Source of the DNA: Geminocystis sp. NIES-3708
GTDB taxonomy: Bacteria; Cyanobacteriota; Cyanobacteriia; Cyanobacteriales; Cyanobacteriaceae
Direction: 5' to 3'
NCBI RefSeq assembly: GCF_001548095.1
Contig: NZ_AP014815.1
Coordinates: forward strand, 2,789,656-2,853,655
DNA: 64,000 bases
In this document: piece after piece, positions 5,152-13,741 of the stretch
Position numbering within the stretch: the stretch's first letter is position 1
How the letters are laid out: each line of letters starts with the position of its first letter
Translations under genes and position numbers: made by a program
Notes under the pieces: model-generated
Told to the model about the DNA's origin: nothing
What the model saw: the letters and a program-made list of their open reading frames with translations, nothing else
Databases searched by the model: none

Positions 5152-6433
5152 CTGAGGGGGCGACAATGAAGGTAAACAGACGATGGCATAAGAGATTGAA
5201 GCTGGTAATCTGGATAAAAATAAGATGTTTTTAGTTTTTATATTAATTACTATAGAAAAAGATGTTTCAACTTCCCCAATTTTATCAGGAGTATTTAAAA
5301 AAACAGTTTAATTTACCTCAATATTTAACTCTTTGTCTTTTAGTTAATTTACTTCAAAATCTTAAAACTGTTAGGTTAGAAGAAATGGCAAAACTTTTTC
5401 CTTATCCGATTAAATTAAGAAGTAGAATTAAAAAGTTACAAAGATTTTTAAGTCTGAAAAATTGGAAAGTTGAAACCATATGGTTTCCGATTTTAAAATC
5501 ATGGATTATGAACCAATGGGAATCAAACAAAGTAATTTATTTAGTCATGGATAGAACACAGTGGCAAAACATTAATATATTGATGGTAAGTTTAGTTCAT
5601 CATCAAGGAGCTATCCCTGTATATTTTATCTGATTAAATAAAAAAGGAAGTAGTAATTTATCAGAACAAAAACAAGTATTAGAAGCAAGTATTAATTTAT
5701 TAATTGAATATAAAATAATCGTTTTAGGAGATAGAGAATTTTGCTCTGTGGATTTAGCAAAATGGTTATCAGTAGAGAAACAGGTTTATTTATCTCTACG
5801 TTTAAAAAAGAGTGAATATGTGGAGTTAGAAACTGATATATGGTTTCGATTGAGTGAATTAGGTTTATCTCCAGGATTCTCCGTATATTATCGAGGAATA
5901 AAAGTTACAAAAACCAAGGGATTCTCAGGAATTAATTTAGCAGCAAAATGGAAGAAAAACTATAGACATAAATCGAGTAAACAGCCATGGTTTATTCTCA
6001 CAAATTTAGAAAGTATGTCGGAAACAATCTCTGCTTATTCCAAAAGAATGGGTATTGAAGAAATGTTTAGAGATTTTAAATTAGGAGGTTATAACTTAGA
6101 AAGTACAAAACTTGAAAATGAACGACTAATTTCTTTAATTATACTGATAACATTATCCTATAGTTATTCAACATTTATAGGAGAAGAAATTAAAAGAAAA
6201 GGAATAAGTGAATATCTAGTTAGACCCACAGAAAAAAGAAGAAGATATAAAAGATATAGTGATTTTTCTATTGGTTTAAATGGGATAAAATGGCTAAGTG
6301 AAATCTGCTTTTTTCAAGAACAATTAGATAAGTTAACCTCTTTATTTCCTCAGAAACAGTCCTATTATCGTCAAGGTATGAGGGCTATTTCCCTTATCCA
6401 ATCTGCATTCTGAATGTTCTGTCGCACCCTCAG
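5152..6433 (+). mobile_element. IS4-family insertion sequence, 1282 bp
   Basis: The ends are 14-bp inverted repeats, CTGAGGGGGCGACA at 5152-5165 and the complement of CTGAGGGTGCGACA at 6420-6433, with one mismatch. Between them is one transposase gene. No target-site duplication is visible. The left flank is the plug region of a TonB receptor and the right flank is the middle of a periplasmic binding-protein gene, so the element marks a deletion or recombination junction rather than a simple insertion. Confidence 0.85.
5262..6413 (+). pseudogene. IS4-family transposase with in-frame TGA
   Basis: A DDE transposase reading in one frame from ATG 5262 to the stop ending at 6413, 383 codons, broken once by TGA at 5631-5633 (after PVYFI, before LNKKGSS). 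Catalytic features are present on both sides: 'VMDRTQWQ' (first D) before the stop, and 'LGDREFCS' (second D) and 'GIEEMFRDFKLGGY' (the E of the IS4 YREK-like region) after it. With a premature stop the transposase should be inactive unless read through. Terminal repeats are intact, so mobilisation in trans is conceivable. Confidence 0.88.
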
Positions 6434-7021: not shown

Positions 7022-8143
7022 TTATACTCTAACTAATTGCATTAATGGTTCAAATGAATATAATGCTGGTTTTCTTCCTGATGCTTCTTCTAAAACTTTA
7101 AGCAAATCTTCCTCCACAAGTTTTCGGGTGAATCTAGCTGCTGTAGCACTGGGTATCCCACTATTAGAGGTAAATCTATTATTTCTGAATACAGGATTTC
7201 TAAATATGTAATCTAAAGCATTAACGCTCCATTTTGAAGATAAAATTTCTGCAAATATTACTTTCATTTCTTCATATAAATTTTTAATATTTTCTGCAAT
7301 GGTTAAATTTCTGATGGCTTGTTTTGCGATCGCCTCTAGGAAAAAATTACACCATCTTTCCCAATCATTATTTAAAGAAACATTCCTTAACTCATAAATA
7401 TATCTATCTTTATTATTTTCTAAATAGGAACTGATATAAAAATGAGGCTCAGAAATTGCTCCGAAATGCCATAACATTAAAGTAATTAACATTCTACCAA
7501 TACGTCCATTACCATCTTTAAAGGGATGTAAGGCTTCAAATTCTATATGTGCGATGGCTGTTTTGACTAAAATAGGGTGTTGATTATCGTTAATATACTT
7601 AAATAATTGATCTAATCCATCTTGCAATTTTTCTGGGCTAATAGGAATAAATGAGATATTTCGTTTCCAGTTATCCCCAATATAATTTTGTTCATTTTTA
7701 AATTCTCCCGGAGATTCTGATGCACCTCTTCCAAATGATAATAATCTTTGATGAATACTTTTAATTAGAGATTGAGTTAAAGGATAACCGTCTTGTATTG
7801 CTTTTTGAGCCGATTTCAATGATCTTTGATAAAGAAGTGTCTCAATTACTTCTGATCGCACATTTTGAGTCAATTCTGTTTCATTATTATAATCAGCTTC
7901 ATATTTTAAAATTTCATCCATAGTGCTAATAGTGCCTTCCATCCTTGAAGATATAATTGCCTCTTGATTTCTCAAAGGTGCAAGTAATATTTCGCTATTG
8001 TGCATATTTTTCAGCATTTGATCATATCTGGCAACCGCATCCGTTGCTTTAACTAATGACATCACAAATTTTTCATAGTCAAGATGATGGGGAGGAAAGC
8101 GATCATAATGATAGTTTACTGCATTACTCAGGTTATATTTCAT
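7022..8143 (-). CDS. Fic-family AMP/nucleotidyl transferase
   Basis: A 373-residue Fic protein. The active-site motif HPFKDGNGRIGR is complete at residues 206-217 (catalytic His206). An N-terminal Fic_N domain carries the auto-inhibitory helix motif SSRMEG (residues 65-70, fitting [S/T]xxxE[G/N]), so it is a class II, self-inhibited Fic enzyme. The C-terminal ~70 residues look like a winged-helix domain (SATAARFTRKLVEEDLLKVLEEASGRKPALYSF). Such proteins transfer AMP or a related group onto Ser/Thr/Tyr of target proteins. It stands alone on the minus strand, divergent from the XRE-ImmA gene. Its target cannot be inferred. Confidence 0.92.
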   Translation of the reverse strand: MKYNLSNAVNYHYDRFPPHHLDYEKFVMSLVKATDAVARYDQMLKNMHNSEILLAPLRNQEAIISSRMEGTISTMDEILKYEADYNNETELTQNVRSEVIETLLYQRSLKSAQKAIQDGYPLTQSLIKSIHQRLLSFGRGASESPGEFKNEQNYIGDNWKRNISFIPISPEKLQDGLDQLFKYINDNQHPILVKTAIAHIEFEALHPFKDGNGRIGRMLITLMLWHFGAISEPHFYISSYLENNKDRYIYELRNVSLNNDWERWCNFFLEAIAKQAIRNLTIAENIKNLYEEMKVIFAEILSSKWSVNALDYIFRNPVFRNNRFTSNSGIPSATAARFTRKLVEEDLLKVLEEASGRKPALYSFEPLMQLVRV

Positions 8144-8340
8144 TAAATTATGATTATCGAGCTAGATATCAATATTTTACTAAAAATTAACATTGAATCA
8201 TTTAGATATAAATATTTTAGCTATAATGAGAAACAAAATAGTTTAATGTGAATAGATTTATGTCAAAAATGCTTGTCGATCGAACTTAGCCAATTTTGAG
8301 AGACAAAACAAATAAAATAATCCTTTAATGATAATCTGTT

Positions 8341-9489
8341 ATGTCATTTGACCTTAAATTATTTAGTTCAAAGCTAAAAAAATATCGTGAACAACGTCAA
8401 GTTTCGATCAAAGAAATTTCTCAATCAACTGGTATTTTAACGCAAGACTTAATTGACTTAGAAGACGAGAAAAAAATACCAACAGGAGATCAAGTTTTGA
8501 TCTTGGCAGACTATTACAAATGTGACTATCAATTTTTTTTATCGAATGAAAAGTTAGCTCCGTTTGAGCAAATAGAAGCACTTTATAGAAAACATGGTGA
8601 TGAATTTTCTCAGAAAGATCGTAAGGTAATACAAGAATTTTTATTTCTATGTGAATGCGAAGAATTTTTGTTTGAATTAATACCTAGACAACATTATAAA
8701 CTCTTTCATTTTTCAAAAAATGGATCATATTACAAAAGTCACGGAGAACAAGCTTCTATAAAATTAAGACAACATCTTGATTATTCCTCAAATGATTTTA
8801 TCCGTGATATTTACGATGATTTTCGTCGTTTGGGATTTCATATATTTCGTCGAAAACTAGGTAATTCTTCTATTTCAGGACTATATATTAAACATCCGAC
8901 GGCAGGTAAATGTATTTTAGTCAATTACGATGAAGATATTTACAGACAAAGATTTACGGTTGCTCACGAGTCAGCCCATGCAATTTTAGATGAGGAAGAA
9001 GATTTTGTTGTTTCTTTTACTTCTTGGAATAAAAATGACCTTGTGGAAATTAGAGCAAATACATTTGCATCTCATTATCTAATACCACGTAATTTATTAA
9101 ATCAAATTCCACAACCAACTAATTGGGATGATGAAAAAGTAAAAATATGGGCAAATAAATTACAAGTAAATACACAACCTCTAGCCATTGCTCTCAGTGA
9201 TGAAAAATTAATATCAACAGAAATTTATGAACAAATGAAATCGATCAAAATACTAAAGAATAAAAAGGTTGATCCAGAATTACCAGCTGATTTATCTCCT
9301 AATTCTCGTGAGCGTAAAGAATTACTTTTAAAAAAGGGACTCTCAACATTTTACGTCAATCTTTGTTTTGAAGCCTATGAAAAAAGTTTTATTTCACTAG
9401 GCAGATTAGCAGAAATGCTTTTAGTTAATGAACATGAACTCTATCAAATATTAGAAATTTACGGAATGAGATTAAGATATGACAACTGA
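8341..9489 (+). CDS. XRE helix-turn-helix / ImmA-IrrE metallopeptidase
   Basis: A 382-residue two-domain protein. An XRE-type HTH occupies residues ~8-66 (LKKYREQRQVSIKEISQSTGI...). The zinc peptidase domain has HESAH at 209-213 and a third-ligand glutamate in 'EIRANTFASHYLIP' (E237). These are COG2856-type proteases: in phage and ICE systems ImmA cleaves a repressor, and IrrE/PprI cleaves DdrO in Deinococcus. The C-terminal ~80 residues form an extra helical part. The stop overlaps the start of a PIN-domain gene by 11 nt, so the two are translationally coupled. A TATAAT sequence lies at 8222-8227. The molecular target is unknown. Confidence 0.88.
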   Translation: MSFDLKLFSSKLKKYREQRQVSIKEISQSTGILTQDLIDLEDEKKIPTGDQVLILADYYKCDYQFFLSNEKLAPFEQIEALYRKHGDEFSQKDRKVIQEFLFLCECEEFLFELIPRQHYKLFHFSKNGSYYKSHGEQASIKLRQHLDYSSNDFIRDIYDDFRRLGFHIFRRKLGNSSISGLYIKHPTAGKCILVNYDEDIYRQRFTVAHESAHAILDEEEDFVVSFTSWNKNDLVEIRANTFASHYLIPRNLLNQIPQPTNWDDEKVKIWANKLQVNTQPLAIALSDEKLISTEIYEQMKSIKILKNKKVDPELPADLSPNSRERKELLLKKGLSTFYVNLCFEAYEKSFISLGRLAEMLLVNEHELYQILEIYGMRLRYDN

Positions 9490-10072
9490 ACGTAATCCAT
9501 CCAATTTTTATTCAATCAATGTTGTAGATACTTGTTCTATATGGCACATTATTTCAAGTCAACTGTTGCGTGTAACGGCTTATTCTGCTCGATGTTCATT
9601 TTGTTGTACTAATTTTGTATATTATGAGTGTTTGTATAAGCCACGAGAACAACCAAAAGATGAAGATATAGAATTACAAAATTTGCTAAAACAAGAAATC
9701 AACAATGAACAATTTAAAAGTTATCATCTTGATATTGAGGATTTACAGGAAGTTGAGATATTAAAAAGACGCAAAAAGCTAGGAAAAGGAGAATTGACAT
9801 CTATTGCTTATGCAAAAAAGACAAATCAGGCTTTTATTACTGATGATCAGGGTGCAAGAAATATTGCTGAAGAAATACTTGGTAATGATAAAGTTCAAAC
9901 TACCCCACATCTATTAGGATGGCTATTTTTCAAAAATTTCTTGAATTATGAAGATATAAAACTTATTATTGAACAACATCAAACATATAACGGTAAATTA
10001 GAGCGTTATTTTATGGAAATGTATCATAAAGCCTTAGATTATAAACTCAAACAGTATTCTACTAAATATTAA
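9479..10072 (+). CDS. PIN-domain putative ribonuclease partner of XRE-ImmA
   Basis: A 197-residue protein with PIN-fold landmarks: an N-terminal strand ending in VVDTCSIW (Asp17), a central 'GKGELTSIAYAKK' (Glu105) and 'FITDDQGARNIAEE' (Asp122/Asp123), the expected acidic metal-binding residues. The C-terminal third is longer than in VapC-type toxins. The ATG lies inside the upstream gene's last codons (11-nt overlap), so expression is coupled to the ImmA/IrrE protease. Two roles fit: a toxin or effector RNase controlled by proteolysis, or a nuclease acting in a stress response. No classical small antitoxin is adjacent. Confidence 0.75.
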   Translation: MTTERNPSNFYSINVVDTCSIWHIISSQLLRVTAYSARCSFCCTNFVYYECLYKPREQPKDEDIELQNLLKQEINNEQFKSYHLDIEDLQEVEILKRRKKLGKGELTSIAYAKKTNQAFITDDQGARNIAEEILGNDKVQTTPHLLGWLFFKNFLNYEDIKLIIEQHQTYNGKLERYFMEMYHKALDYKLKQYSTKY

Positions 10073-10539: not shown

Positions 10540-11046
10540 ATGATAAAAGTTATTAAAGCAAATTTTGATATACCAGCCCATAGAGAAGCAGTCGTTGATT
10601 TAATGAATACCTATGCCCTTGATTATATGGGGGGAGGGGAAGAATTGTCGGATTATGTCAAAACTAACTTAGCTAGTGAATTGGCAAAAAGACAATCTAT
10701 TCATGCAGTTTTAGCCTTTGTAGATAATAAACCTGCGGGGTTAGTAATTGCCATCGAAGGCTTCTCAACTTTTGCTTGTAAACCTTTATTAAATATTCAT
10801 GATTTAATTATTATTCCTGAATATCGTCGTCAAGGTATTTCTAAATTATTATTGCAAAAAGTGGAAGATATTGCTCTAGAGTTGGGGTGTTGTAAACTCA
10901 CGCTAGAAGTATTAGAAGGGAATCATATCGCTCAATCGGCTTATCAGGCTTTTGGTTTTGACGGTTATCAGTTAAATCCTGATATGGGTAGGGCGTTATT
11001 TTGGCAGAAAAAATTACCATTAAACAAAGTTGAAAAAACTAAATAA
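10540..11046 (+). CDS. GNAT-family N-acetyltransferase
   Basis: A 168-residue single-domain acetyltransferase. The acetyl-CoA-binding motif A is visible in 'IHDLIIIPEYRRQGISKLLLQKVEDIA' (RRQGIS as the RxxGxG/A loop, residues ~95-105), followed by 'LEVLEGNHIAQSAYQAFGF', the standard motif B. It is likely an aminoglycoside- or amino-acid-type N-acetyltransferase, but the substrate cannot be told. It is monocistronic in appearance, with a pseudogene directly downstream. Confidence 0.85.
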   Translation: MIKVIKANFDIPAHREAVVDLMNTYALDYMGGGEELSDYVKTNLASELAKRQSIHAVLAFVDNKPAGLVIAIEGFSTFACKPLLNIHDLIIIPEYRRQGISKLLLQKVEDIALELGCCKLTLEVLEGNHIAQSAYQAFGFDGYQLNPDMGRALFWQKKLPLNKVEKTK

Positions 11047-12060: not shown

Positions 12061-13099
12061 TTAGCGAGATTTGCTCAACAAAAAGATAAAGTAAGGCACA
12101 CCAATAATCGCCGTGATAATACCACAGGGAAGTTCAAGGGGGGTAAATAATAGTCTGCCCAATAAATCTGCACTGACAACTAATAATCCCCCCACTAAAC
12201 CCGTAACGGGGAATTAAGCCTTGATGGGTATTTCCTACCAAAAAACGGGCGATATGATGGGCAATTAAACCGACAAATCCTACCGCACCAGCGATCGCCA
12301 CACTAGCACTAGAAAGAGCAACACTAGAGATTAAAAGAGTTAATTGTGTTTTTTGGAGAGGTAAACCTAAACCCTTCGCTAAATTATCTCCTAAATTGAG
12401 ACTATTTAACTCTTTACTCATTATCCACGTTAGCAGAACAAAAATGACAATCCAAGGCAATAAAATCAAAACCTGTGTTATGGTTTTTCCATAAACGCTA
12501 CCCGTTAACCAGATTAAGGCTTGAGAAACACTATTTATCTCACCAAAGGTTGTAATAATATTCGTGATGGCGGAAATGATAAAATTAAAACCAATACCCA
12601 CTAAAATCAAACGAATAATTGAATTTTCTCCCTGCCACGCCATTGCATAAATAGCTAATGCTACCAATATTCCCCCCATAAAAGCTGAAAAGGGTAATAA
12701 GACAATGGGTAGGGAAGGAAAAACTACGATAAATAATATAGCGGCTAATCCTGCACCTGCATTGATACCAATAATACTAGGATCTGCTAATGGGTTACGT
12801 GTAATAGTCTGCATGATACAACCAGAAATAGACAATCCTATGCCGACTAGCCAAGCGGTAAGAGTGCGGGGTAAACGCAGAGTGTTAATAATAAATTGAA
12901 AGTCTGATTGTGTGTTAAATCCAACTAAAGTTTTAATGACATCTACTGGGGAAATATAATATTCTCCGTAACCAATACTAAGAGTTATCACAATAAGGGA
13001 TGTTATCAGTAAAACTAAGAGAGTTTTTGGCACTCTACTATCTAACCATAACGAAAAAGATGGTTGCTTTGATCTAACGATAATCCAAGAATCTTTCAT
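12061..13099 (-). pseudogene. FecCD-family siderophore permease with 1-nt frameshift
   Basis: An inner-membrane permease for Fe3+-siderophore import. From ATG 13099 it reads as a normal FecCD protein (TLRLPRTLTAWLVGIGLSISG, 'QTITRNPLADPSIIGINAGAG', 'GAVGFVGLIAHHIARFLVG') up to 'THQGLIP'. After that the frame is wrong and ends at 12134. Deleting one G from the GGGG run at 12208-12211 restores VTGLVGGLLVVSADLLGRLL, then TPLELPCGIITAIIGVPYF and LSKSR, ending at TAA 12061-12063, a normal 345 residues. The gene may be inactivated, or this may be a sequencing error in a homopolymer. One oddity is 'LIAHHIAR' where LIxPHIAR is usual. Confidence 0.85.
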
Positions 13100-13230: not shown

Positions 13231-13494
13231 TCAAGATTTATTAATATGTGACCAAATAGAAACTACTTTAATTACTTGATTTTCTTCGTCAATGGAGTAA
13301 ACAAGGCGATGTTGAATATTAATCCTTCTCGAATAATATTTTTTAAGATTTCCTGATAATTTTTCATAAGGGGGTTGATAAGGATTTACTTTTAAAATGT
13401 CCAGTAAATCTTTAAGGTTACTATCGAGGTTAGCTGATTTTATTTTCTTGGCATCTTTTAAGACTCTCTGACTAAAATCAATCTTCCACACCAT
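13231..13494 (-). CDS. yoeB: YoeB-family toxin (mRNA interferase)
   Basis: An 87-residue protein of the Txe/YoeB family (RelE superfamily). The typical end is complete: 'LSGNLKKYYSRRINIQHRLVYSID' with the catalytic-region Arg and His, and 'VVSIWSHINKS' in the place of the terminal H/Y tail. YoeB cleaves mRNA at the ribosome. Its start overlaps the upstream antitoxin gene by 17 nt, the usual antitoxin-first order. The pair sits between two FecCD permease genes in the same orientation, apparently inserted in an iron-uptake operon. Confidence 0.92.
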   Translation of the reverse strand: MVWKIDFSQRVLKDAKKIKSANLDSNLKDLLDILKVNPYQPPYEKLSGNLKKYYSRRINIQHRLVYSIDEENQVIKVVSIWSHINKS

Positions 13495-13741
13495 CTAACA
13501 CCCTCAAAAATTGATCTTCCGATACCCAATCATTTTCTGACTCAGCTTGTTTAAGAGAATCCACTAACCCCACAATGGATTGCAAATAAAGAGTTTCTTG
13601 TAAACTATCCCAATCCTCTTTAGACAATAACACCGCATCTCCTTTTTTGCTAGTGATAATTCGTGGTACATGATCTTGGTTCACTTGTTCTACTAATCCG
13701 AATAAATTGGCTCTTGCCGTACTTGCGTTTATTACTTCCAT
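13478..13741 (-). CDS. yefM: YefM/Phd-family antitoxin
   Basis: An 87-residue Phd/YefM antitoxin. The N-terminal DNA-binding part reads 'MEVINASTARANLFGLVEQVNQDHVPRIITSKKGDAVLLSKEDWDSLQETLYL', a standard family pattern, followed by an acidic tail that would wrap the YoeB toxin. It should bind and neutralise YoeB and autoregulate the pair. An AT-rich 55-bp gap separates it from the upstream permease, enough room for its own promoter (TATTGTAC / TATTATAAT-like bases near 13750-13782). Confidence 0.92.
   Translation of the reverse strand: MEVINASTARANLFGLVEQVNQDHVPRIITSKKGDAVLLSKEDWDSLQETLYLQSIVGLVDSLKQAESENDWVSEDQFLRVLDGVED

Follow-up and report, generated by a model that had tools for sequence, protein, structure and literature searches.

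A probable XRE–ImmA/PIN toxin-antitoxin pair in Geminocystis sp. NIES-3708, with a UPF0175-like tail and relatives that have lost the catalytic glutamate of the protease

Two overlapping genes of the cyanobacterium Geminocystis sp. NIES-3708 raise the question of whether a zinc peptidase and a nuclease form one system, and whether proteolysis is what sets the nuclease free. The genes lie in a stretch of 64,000 nucleotides (contig NZ_AP014815.1, positions 2,789,656 to 2,853,655; hereafter the window), and the original prediction, made from the letters of the DNA, described an HTH-HEXXH protein with an intact zinc site, followed by a PIN-fold protein with the expected acidic residues and joined to it by an 11-nucleotide start/stop overlap. 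All three observations hold, and the toxin-antitoxin nature that was also suggested is the best reading: with a probability of roughly 70%, the pair would be a variant form of the XRE–ImmA/PIN kind of toxin-antitoxin, working like VapBC52 of M. tuberculosis. The features of the pair, in window coordinates, are the following.

8341 to 9489, forward strand: gene for the XRE–ImmA–tail protein, putative large antitoxin/sensor (382-aa open reading frame; the family profile matches VapB52)
8371 to 8544, forward strand: N-terminal XRE-type HTH, residues 11-68 (Pfam HTH_19, E 4e-6, under the gathering cut-off)
8584 to 8589, forward strand: Y82-R83, counterpart of the VapB52 'FR motif' at the junction of N-domain and peptidase (alignment of relatives)
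8827 to 9195, forward strand: ImmA/IrrE zinc peptidase domain, residues 163-285 (Peptidase_M78, 72.3 bits, cut-off 22)
8965 to 8979, forward strand: HExxH motif, H209-E210-S-A-H213, intact in the window protein
9046 to 9048, forward strand: E236, likely third zinc ligand (invariant in an eight-row alignment of close relatives)
9364 to 9483, forward strand: C-terminal tail, residues 342-381, UPF0175-like HTH and proposed active-site plug (Pfam UPF0175, E 0.0084, under the cut-off)
9479 to 9489, forward strand: 11-nt overlap between the two genes (open reading frame coordinates)
9479 to 10072, forward strand: PIN-type nuclease, 197 aa, proposed toxin (PIN, PF01850, just under the cut-off)

The PIN match of the nuclease reaches 21.8 bits against a cut-off of 23.6 (E 2.9e-4), and its residues D17, E50, E105, D122 and D123 are invariant in all seven aligned sequences. 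A PDB search with the window PIN profile was empty, and AlphaFold predictions from two alignment rows each gave pLDDT values of 46.8 and 36.2 and were unusable. Used as queries against their own genome at E up to 0.001, the 382-aa protein and the PIN protein each find a single place.

The pairing itself is not new, as is clear from Makarova 2009, Ernits 2023 and the PADLOC candidate PDC-M69; with a relative solved in 2026 as well, the original ranking of the locus as the best candidate for a poorly described system finds no support. Makarova (2009) reported operons that combine COG2856–Xre fusions with a PIN or RelE toxin, listed COG2856 with PIN 42 times (60 in the other direction), and proposed a three-component scheme (PMC2701414). 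This is the same gene pair as in the window, and the available text of that paper makes no mention of a fused COG2886/UPF0175 part. Ernits (2023) presented ImmA as an antitoxin hub (D25) and noted PIN-like partners (PMC10440598). The window protein shares with RosmerTA an ImmA-type antitoxin, and PADLOC RmrA models match it (best E 1e-21) as well as 63 of 63 relatives; however, the Rosmer toxin that was tested is another protein, predicted to be membrane-depolarising (PMC10440598), and none of the six PADLOC matches of the window PIN is named RmrT. PDC-M69 consists of an XRE-like protein (A), ImmA (B) and PIN (C), three models against the two genes here, in which the XRE part is fused. The window proteins match B at E 6.9e-7 and C at E 6.9e-6, both weak; PDC-M69B matches 63 of 63 relatives, PDC-M69C 3 of 54 downstream proteins and the PDC-S70 models 16. 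A literature search for the name PDC-M69 found no paper.

The likely mechanism of the pair, judged by analogy, has been shown in a distant relative, VapBC52 (Rv2515c-Rv2514c) of M. tuberculosis, reported in Nucleic Acids Research in June 2026 with PDB entries 9vzy and 9vzz (PMC13273310). According to that report VapB52 comprises a toxin-binding N-terminal domain, a CapP-like peptidase and a C-terminal domain occluding the PIN active site; upon ssDNA it cleaves itself between the N-terminal and middle domains, with the FR motif as the probable cutting site (PMC13273310). The complex is 1:2, VapC52 cuts tRNAs, those of phages too, and inhibits growth, and its overexpression renders M. smegmatis resistant to phage D29; Tandon et al., as cited there, found VapBC52 to be a functional pair (PMC13273310). 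A profile of the whole family matches VapB52 (9vzy_A) at E 4e-40 over positions 11-379 of 388, and the profile of the window's own clade does so weakly (E 2.6e-7, positions 194-351). Like VapB52, the window protein has three domains (XRE, ImmA peptidase and a C-terminal helical domain, the tail standing at the same place as the C-terminal domain of VapB52), an HExxH motif with a third-ligand Glu, and an Arg at the junction of N-domain and peptidase, where the window protein reads YR and VapB52 FR; in the window too a PIN gene adjoins, its match just under the Pfam cut-off. At the FR position Arg is found in 60 of 63 relatives and Phe in 48 of 63. The window protein has no Cys in the loop after HExxH, a position at which 8 of 63 proteins have one, and without a Cys between H213 and E236 it is missing the cysteine switch of VapB52. 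VapC52 is a DUF4411 PIN, whereas the window PIN is not (no match to Pfam DUF4411 at E up to 1), and L089 is the sole DUF4411 protein among the 54 downstream. With no cysteine switch and a PIN other than DUF4411, the window pair is not filed as VapBC52 but is taken as a variant within the wider XRE–ImmA/PIN kind.

That the two genes belong together was evaluated across genomes, and the conserved two-gene neighbourhood for which the original prediction had proposed a search was found. Among 388 cyanobacterial genomes the window PIN as query matches in seven, counting that of the window, and each of the seven has an XRE–ImmA gene directly upstream; three close relatives share an inter-gene distance of -11, and a fourth, for which the script picked an earlier start, has -41. 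The XRE–ImmA profile matches 56 of 291 cyanobacterial genomes at E up to 1e-10. There are 61 loci besides that of the window, and the 54 with a protein of at least 300 aa form the set for the pairing count, outside which fall L016 and L070 (one gene in two pieces, at contig ends), five short ImmA open reading frames and the window's row; L080 is included although a frameshift splits off its XRE part. A PIN-like open reading frame of at least 100 aa stands at -56 to +32 nt from the XRE–ImmA stop in 46 of the 54, two of these PINs being damaged (L039, L082), and PIN remnants lie downstream in five (L020, L035, L077, L090, L094). Beside the stop in L093 and L017 is a transposase-like gene, recognised in the former by one DUF4096 transposase match and in the latter by reading the open reading frame alone, and L095 has neither tail nor PIN. 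None of the six tail-less proteins (L095, and the five short ImmA open reading frames as judged by their C-termini) has a PIN. Pairing in all seven genomes and in 46 of 54 proteins, with the five remnants, rules out a chance overlap of genes.

The reverse search, with a PIN profile built from the largest branch, matched 31 of 291 genomes, and a full-length XRE–ImmA open reading frame is directly upstream in 27 of the 30 loci checked, many of which are the same as in the forward search. At L144 (the same place as L080) the upstream gene is frameshift-split, at L168 it is cut by the contig end, and at L154, with about 190 bp of contig left and the PIN start seemingly lost, no XRE–ImmA is upstream. 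Eight plasmid regions were read out of 15 records with a match: L104, L106, L107 and L108 have a PIN-like gene downstream, the Thermus plasmids L103 and L109 have a PIN gene upstream in divergent orientation, L110 is a weak case only, and L105, a tail-bearing relative, has as neighbour a HipA-family kinase, not a PIN. The window PIN query had no match on plasmids and the XRE–ImmA protease query none in phages, and in pattern-based scans of viral_contigs neither family had a relative; virus-borne spread is thus not supported. Among the 54 downstream proteins Pfam at E up to 0.1 names 7 as PIN, 6 as PIN-TPR-GreABC, 3 as DUF3368 and 1 as DUF4411, so that the PIN identity of many rests on Asp motifs and mutual likeness. 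An N-terminal hydrophobic-Asp motif, its pattern written post hoc after viewing the sequences, occurs in 52 of the 54 open reading frames of alignment A4 (the 46, L020, L070, L093, the window's and four from plasmids) against 6.5% of shuffles. The two damaged and five remnant loci named above make seven in which a spoiled toxin lies beside a full-length antitoxin, a number favoured by searches that started at or included the antitoxin; decay on the antitoxin side appears at one locus, L080 = L144.

An accessory site had also been predicted, and the contents of the site do differ in two congeners. It is bounded as follows.

8188 to 8307, no strand assigned: conserved left flank of the cassette site, 120 bp (single place in this genome)
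10540 to 11046, forward strand: GNAT acetyltransferase gene, right flank of the cassette site (conserved in the same two congeners)

The left flank recurs in two of four congeners, at 90% and 83% identity. Between the same flanks one of them carries a phycobilisome-like gene and a SLATT 2TM gene, and the other a gene of 394 aa that matches defence candidates weakly; with other genes at the same site in both, the locus seems to be an exchangeable cassette. The adjoining Fic gene (7022-8143), for which partial, distant matches only are found in three of four congeners, is of the SoFic type (PADLOC SoFic, E 1.5e-106). Its product contains a motif SxxxEG, spotted by eye, which we take to be of the inhibitory type, in keeping with the self-inhibited Fic neighbour originally described. 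The variable site, the patchy presence of the window's own PIN family (7 of 388 genomes) and the decay on the toxin side all bear on whether this is a toxin-antitoxin pair at all. A regulator accompanied by a housekeeping or RNA-processing PIN nuclease would be compatible with the dN/dS of 0.196 found for 18 partner PINs in the dead-protease branch discussed below, a value suiting an ordinary gene; given these three observations and the growth inhibition by VapC52 (PMC13273310), it is a very improbable account.

The toxin-antitoxin reading calls for an antitoxin, and the pair had been described as being without the usual small one. That description needs revision: the antitoxin is in all likelihood the XRE–ImmA protein, the small antitoxin function most likely residing inside it, with a C-terminal plug that resembles UPF0175, a family of small HTH antitoxins of PIN toxins. 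A separate, missing small antitoxin gene was rejected because there is nothing between the two genes and the tail can supply the function. In UPF0175 (COG2886)–PIN (DUF3368) pairs the small antitoxin is free-standing, whereas in the window protein it would be a fused tail; the last 40 residues score 16.2 bits against the Pfam UPF0175 cut-off of 27.9 (E 0.0084), under that cut-off and not a free-standing UPF0175. The relative L088 is above it, with 31.6 against 27.9 bits (E 1.3e-7), and if E up to 0.1 is allowed, 14 of 63 relatives match the model. A model of free-standing UPF0175, built solely from 29 cyanobacterial antitoxins, was scanned over the 63 XRE–ImmA proteins, and for 59 of the 61 proteins with any match the best one fell within the last 95 residues, L015 (whose tail is assigned by homology) and L095 having none; as the XRE–ImmA proteins are mutually related, the 59 are not independent events, and most single scores are weak.

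Profiles were also compared by hhalign. All tails together (70 rows, among which five repeat a protein already present and one is the tail-less L095) match UPF0175 at P 86.6 and E 4.5e-6, the window's own clade at P 32.6 and E 4.7e-4, 20 proteins of the largest branch at P 71.1, and L088 at P 95.4; the sister pair L008/L009 alone reaches P 1.8, and three other groups P 12.1 to 27.3, with the group of L085 and others at P 12.1. DUF433, another family of PIN antitoxins, served as control. With all tails it gave P 0.11 and the proteins' own XRE profile P 6.9, and across the ten sets compared DUF433 stayed at P 1.01 or below and XRE at P 18.2 or below. One control is not clean: the XRE region of the L017-L020/L106-L108 group matches UPF0175 at P 31.8. 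The match of the window tail could reflect generic HTH likeness. When the nucleases are compared by hhalign, those of L088 and of the L018/L019/L106-L108 group come out like UPF0175-linked PINs (P ~98), and the window PIN does so weakly (P 9.7); DUF433-linked nucleases look like another nuclease type and are therefore a weak control for this comparison. The main text of the VapBC52 report does not mention UPF0175 (PMC13273310).

The tail might instead be a second DNA-binding HTH for operator recognition with no role in toxin inhibition. COG2886/UPF0175 was predicted to be an HTH protein (PMC2701414), and in most groups only a short part aligns with it (22-68 columns; 80 in L088). The C-terminal domain at the same place in VapB52, however, occludes the toxin (PMC13273310), and tail and PIN distances covary: partial rank correlations with PIN distances over 48 pairs (L014, L020, L039, L082 and L093 left out) are 0.62 for the tail, 0.56 for the core and 0.003 for the XRE part. 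Operator recognition as the sole role of the tail is accordingly an unlikely reading, and a plug is preferred. The distance test shows no share for the XRE part, whereas in pull-downs a VapB52 construct without the C-terminal domain still bound toxin, the N-terminal domain being the one that binds (PMC13273310). That VapB52 alone binds and plugs VapC52 (PMC13273310) bears in turn on the three-component scheme, in which the XRE–ImmA protein would cleave a separate XRE repressor or antitoxin controlling the PIN toxin. Such action in trans is known for ImmA/ImmR and CapP/CapH (PMC2701414, PMC13273310); with the XRE domain fused and the pair without a separate small antitoxin gene, the scheme has very little chance of applying here.

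By analogy with VapBC52, the pair acting as a plugged toxin-antitoxin would proceed as follows. The PIN protein would be an RNase toxin, with tRNA as its likeliest target, and would have the XRE–ImmA–tail protein as antitoxin. The XRE domain at the N-terminus may bind both the operon promoter and the toxin. A scan of the upstream region gave 11 promoter sites against 16.4 expected, and a search there for an operator-like repeat found none that was prominent. The UPF0175-like HTH tail would plug the active site of the PIN protein, with the ImmA domain serving as sensor. Once ssDNA arises through DNA damage or phage attack, the peptidase would cut its own chain near Y82-R83, the complex with the cut antitoxin would fall apart, and the freed nuclease would halt growth. 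We infer that the window pair most likely acts as VapBC52 does (plug, self-cleavage, tRNA cleavage); for toxin release through self-cleavage in the window pair itself, taken singly, the odds are a little below even.

The protease gate, central to the original prediction, thus survives as a release step reported for VapB52 (PMC13273310), but not as a general gate. In the largest branch of the family, with 27 proteins, HExxH has become HGxxH in 22 and RQxxH in 1, so that the catalytic Glu is lost in 23 of 27, by two changes on a tree that excludes L095. An E to G change in HExxH kills a zinc peptidase. The zinc histidines are retained in the 22 HGxxH proteins and the FR motif in 23 of 23 dead-protease proteins, and the 20 aligned PINs of this branch, 17 of which stand beside a dead protease, all carry D11, E45, E98, D115 and D116. 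The dN/dS of the dead ImmA domain is 0.04 (42 of 171 pairs usable, dS between 0 and 2) and that of XRE and tail 0.05, the sample being 19 of the 23 dead proteins with 18 PINs. A dead yet conserved ImmA domain must be retained for something besides catalysis, and an FR motif kept in dead proteins is not kept solely as a cutting site. With the Glu gone from 23 of 27 while protein, tail and nuclease are conserved, self-cleavage cannot be the general trigger, and proteolysis as a universal gate is ruled out by the HGxxH branch. A literature search for this branch found no report among the papers listed, within a coverage that most subscription journals fall outside.

These same observations (the loss of Glu, the low dN/dS, the FR motif in all dead proteins), together with the finding that the zinc motif of VapB52 is dispensable for toxin binding (PMC13273310), favour a reading of the same pair in which ImmA chiefly serves as a scaffold or ligand sensor, and the nuclease is freed by conformational change or through cell proteases rather than by self-cleavage. 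Against its extension to the window are the HExxH kept in the window protein and its seven nearest relatives (the eight-row alignment) and the self-cleavage of VapB52 with ssDNA (PMC13273310), and for the window pair it is somewhat doubtful. Within the preferred reading, the pair may be one branch of a broader class, tentatively and at slightly less than an even chance for the whole: here an ssDNA-sensing XRE–ImmA protein would have taken up a small UPF0175-type antitoxin as its C-terminal plug, and across one large branch in cyanobacteria the protease would be a pseudoenzyme, still sensing and guarding an intact nuclease. If so, toxin release in that branch must occur without self-cleavage, and sensing and proteolysis would have been uncoupled by evolution.

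In summary, comparative analysis of the window pair and its relatives leads from an apparent protease-gated nuclease to a probable toxin-antitoxin in which proteolysis may be one way of release. For VapBC52, self-cleavage is the proposed activating step, and the broken, strongly conserved protease of a related branch suggests that this is not class-wide. The family offers a natural experiment, matched intact and broken proteases whose neighbouring nucleases retain their acidic residues. The resemblance between the plug and UPF0175 would account for a possible origin of a large sensor-antitoxin by fusion of a small one, and links a catalogued defence candidate to a solved mechanism.

The HExxH zinc motif of the ImmA/IrrE peptidase domain was found to be replaced by HGxxH in 22 XRE–ImmA proteins and by RQxxH in one (L086), and PIN genes adjoin the genes for these proteins (loci L021, L023-L029, L031, L033-L036, L038, L039, L071, L074, L080, L082-L084, L086 and L091). 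The ImmA domain of these proteins, which has lost its catalytic Glu, is under strong purifying selection.

On Thermus plasmids (L103, L109 and, weakly, L110) the PIN-like gene is divergent and lies upstream of the XRE–ImmA gene, not downstream. ThiF genes occur near XRE–ImmA genes bearing the C-terminal tail in both L105 and L106, together with a multiubiquitin gene in the latter, and in L105 the PIN position is taken by a HipA-family kinase. The PIN gene L007:1492-2193 contains an in-frame direct duplication of ~30 residues.

Further features of the window were recognized by eye:
5262-6413, transposase-like gene in two ORFs, near the Fic gene
12134-13099, FecCD-type permease gene

The former is probably an IS remnant. 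The permease has an odd C-terminal sequence, perhaps reflecting a frameshift. In an iron-uptake cluster, two FecCD-type permease genes flank a RelE-like/Phd-like gene pair (13231-13741, also by eye).

At the putative cassette site of the pair, one Geminocystis congener carries a phycobilisome-like gene and a SLATT 2TM gene (L183:8945-9867), and another encodes a 394-aa protein (L184:3776-4957) weakly matching the defence candidates PDC-M34B and PD-T4-5.
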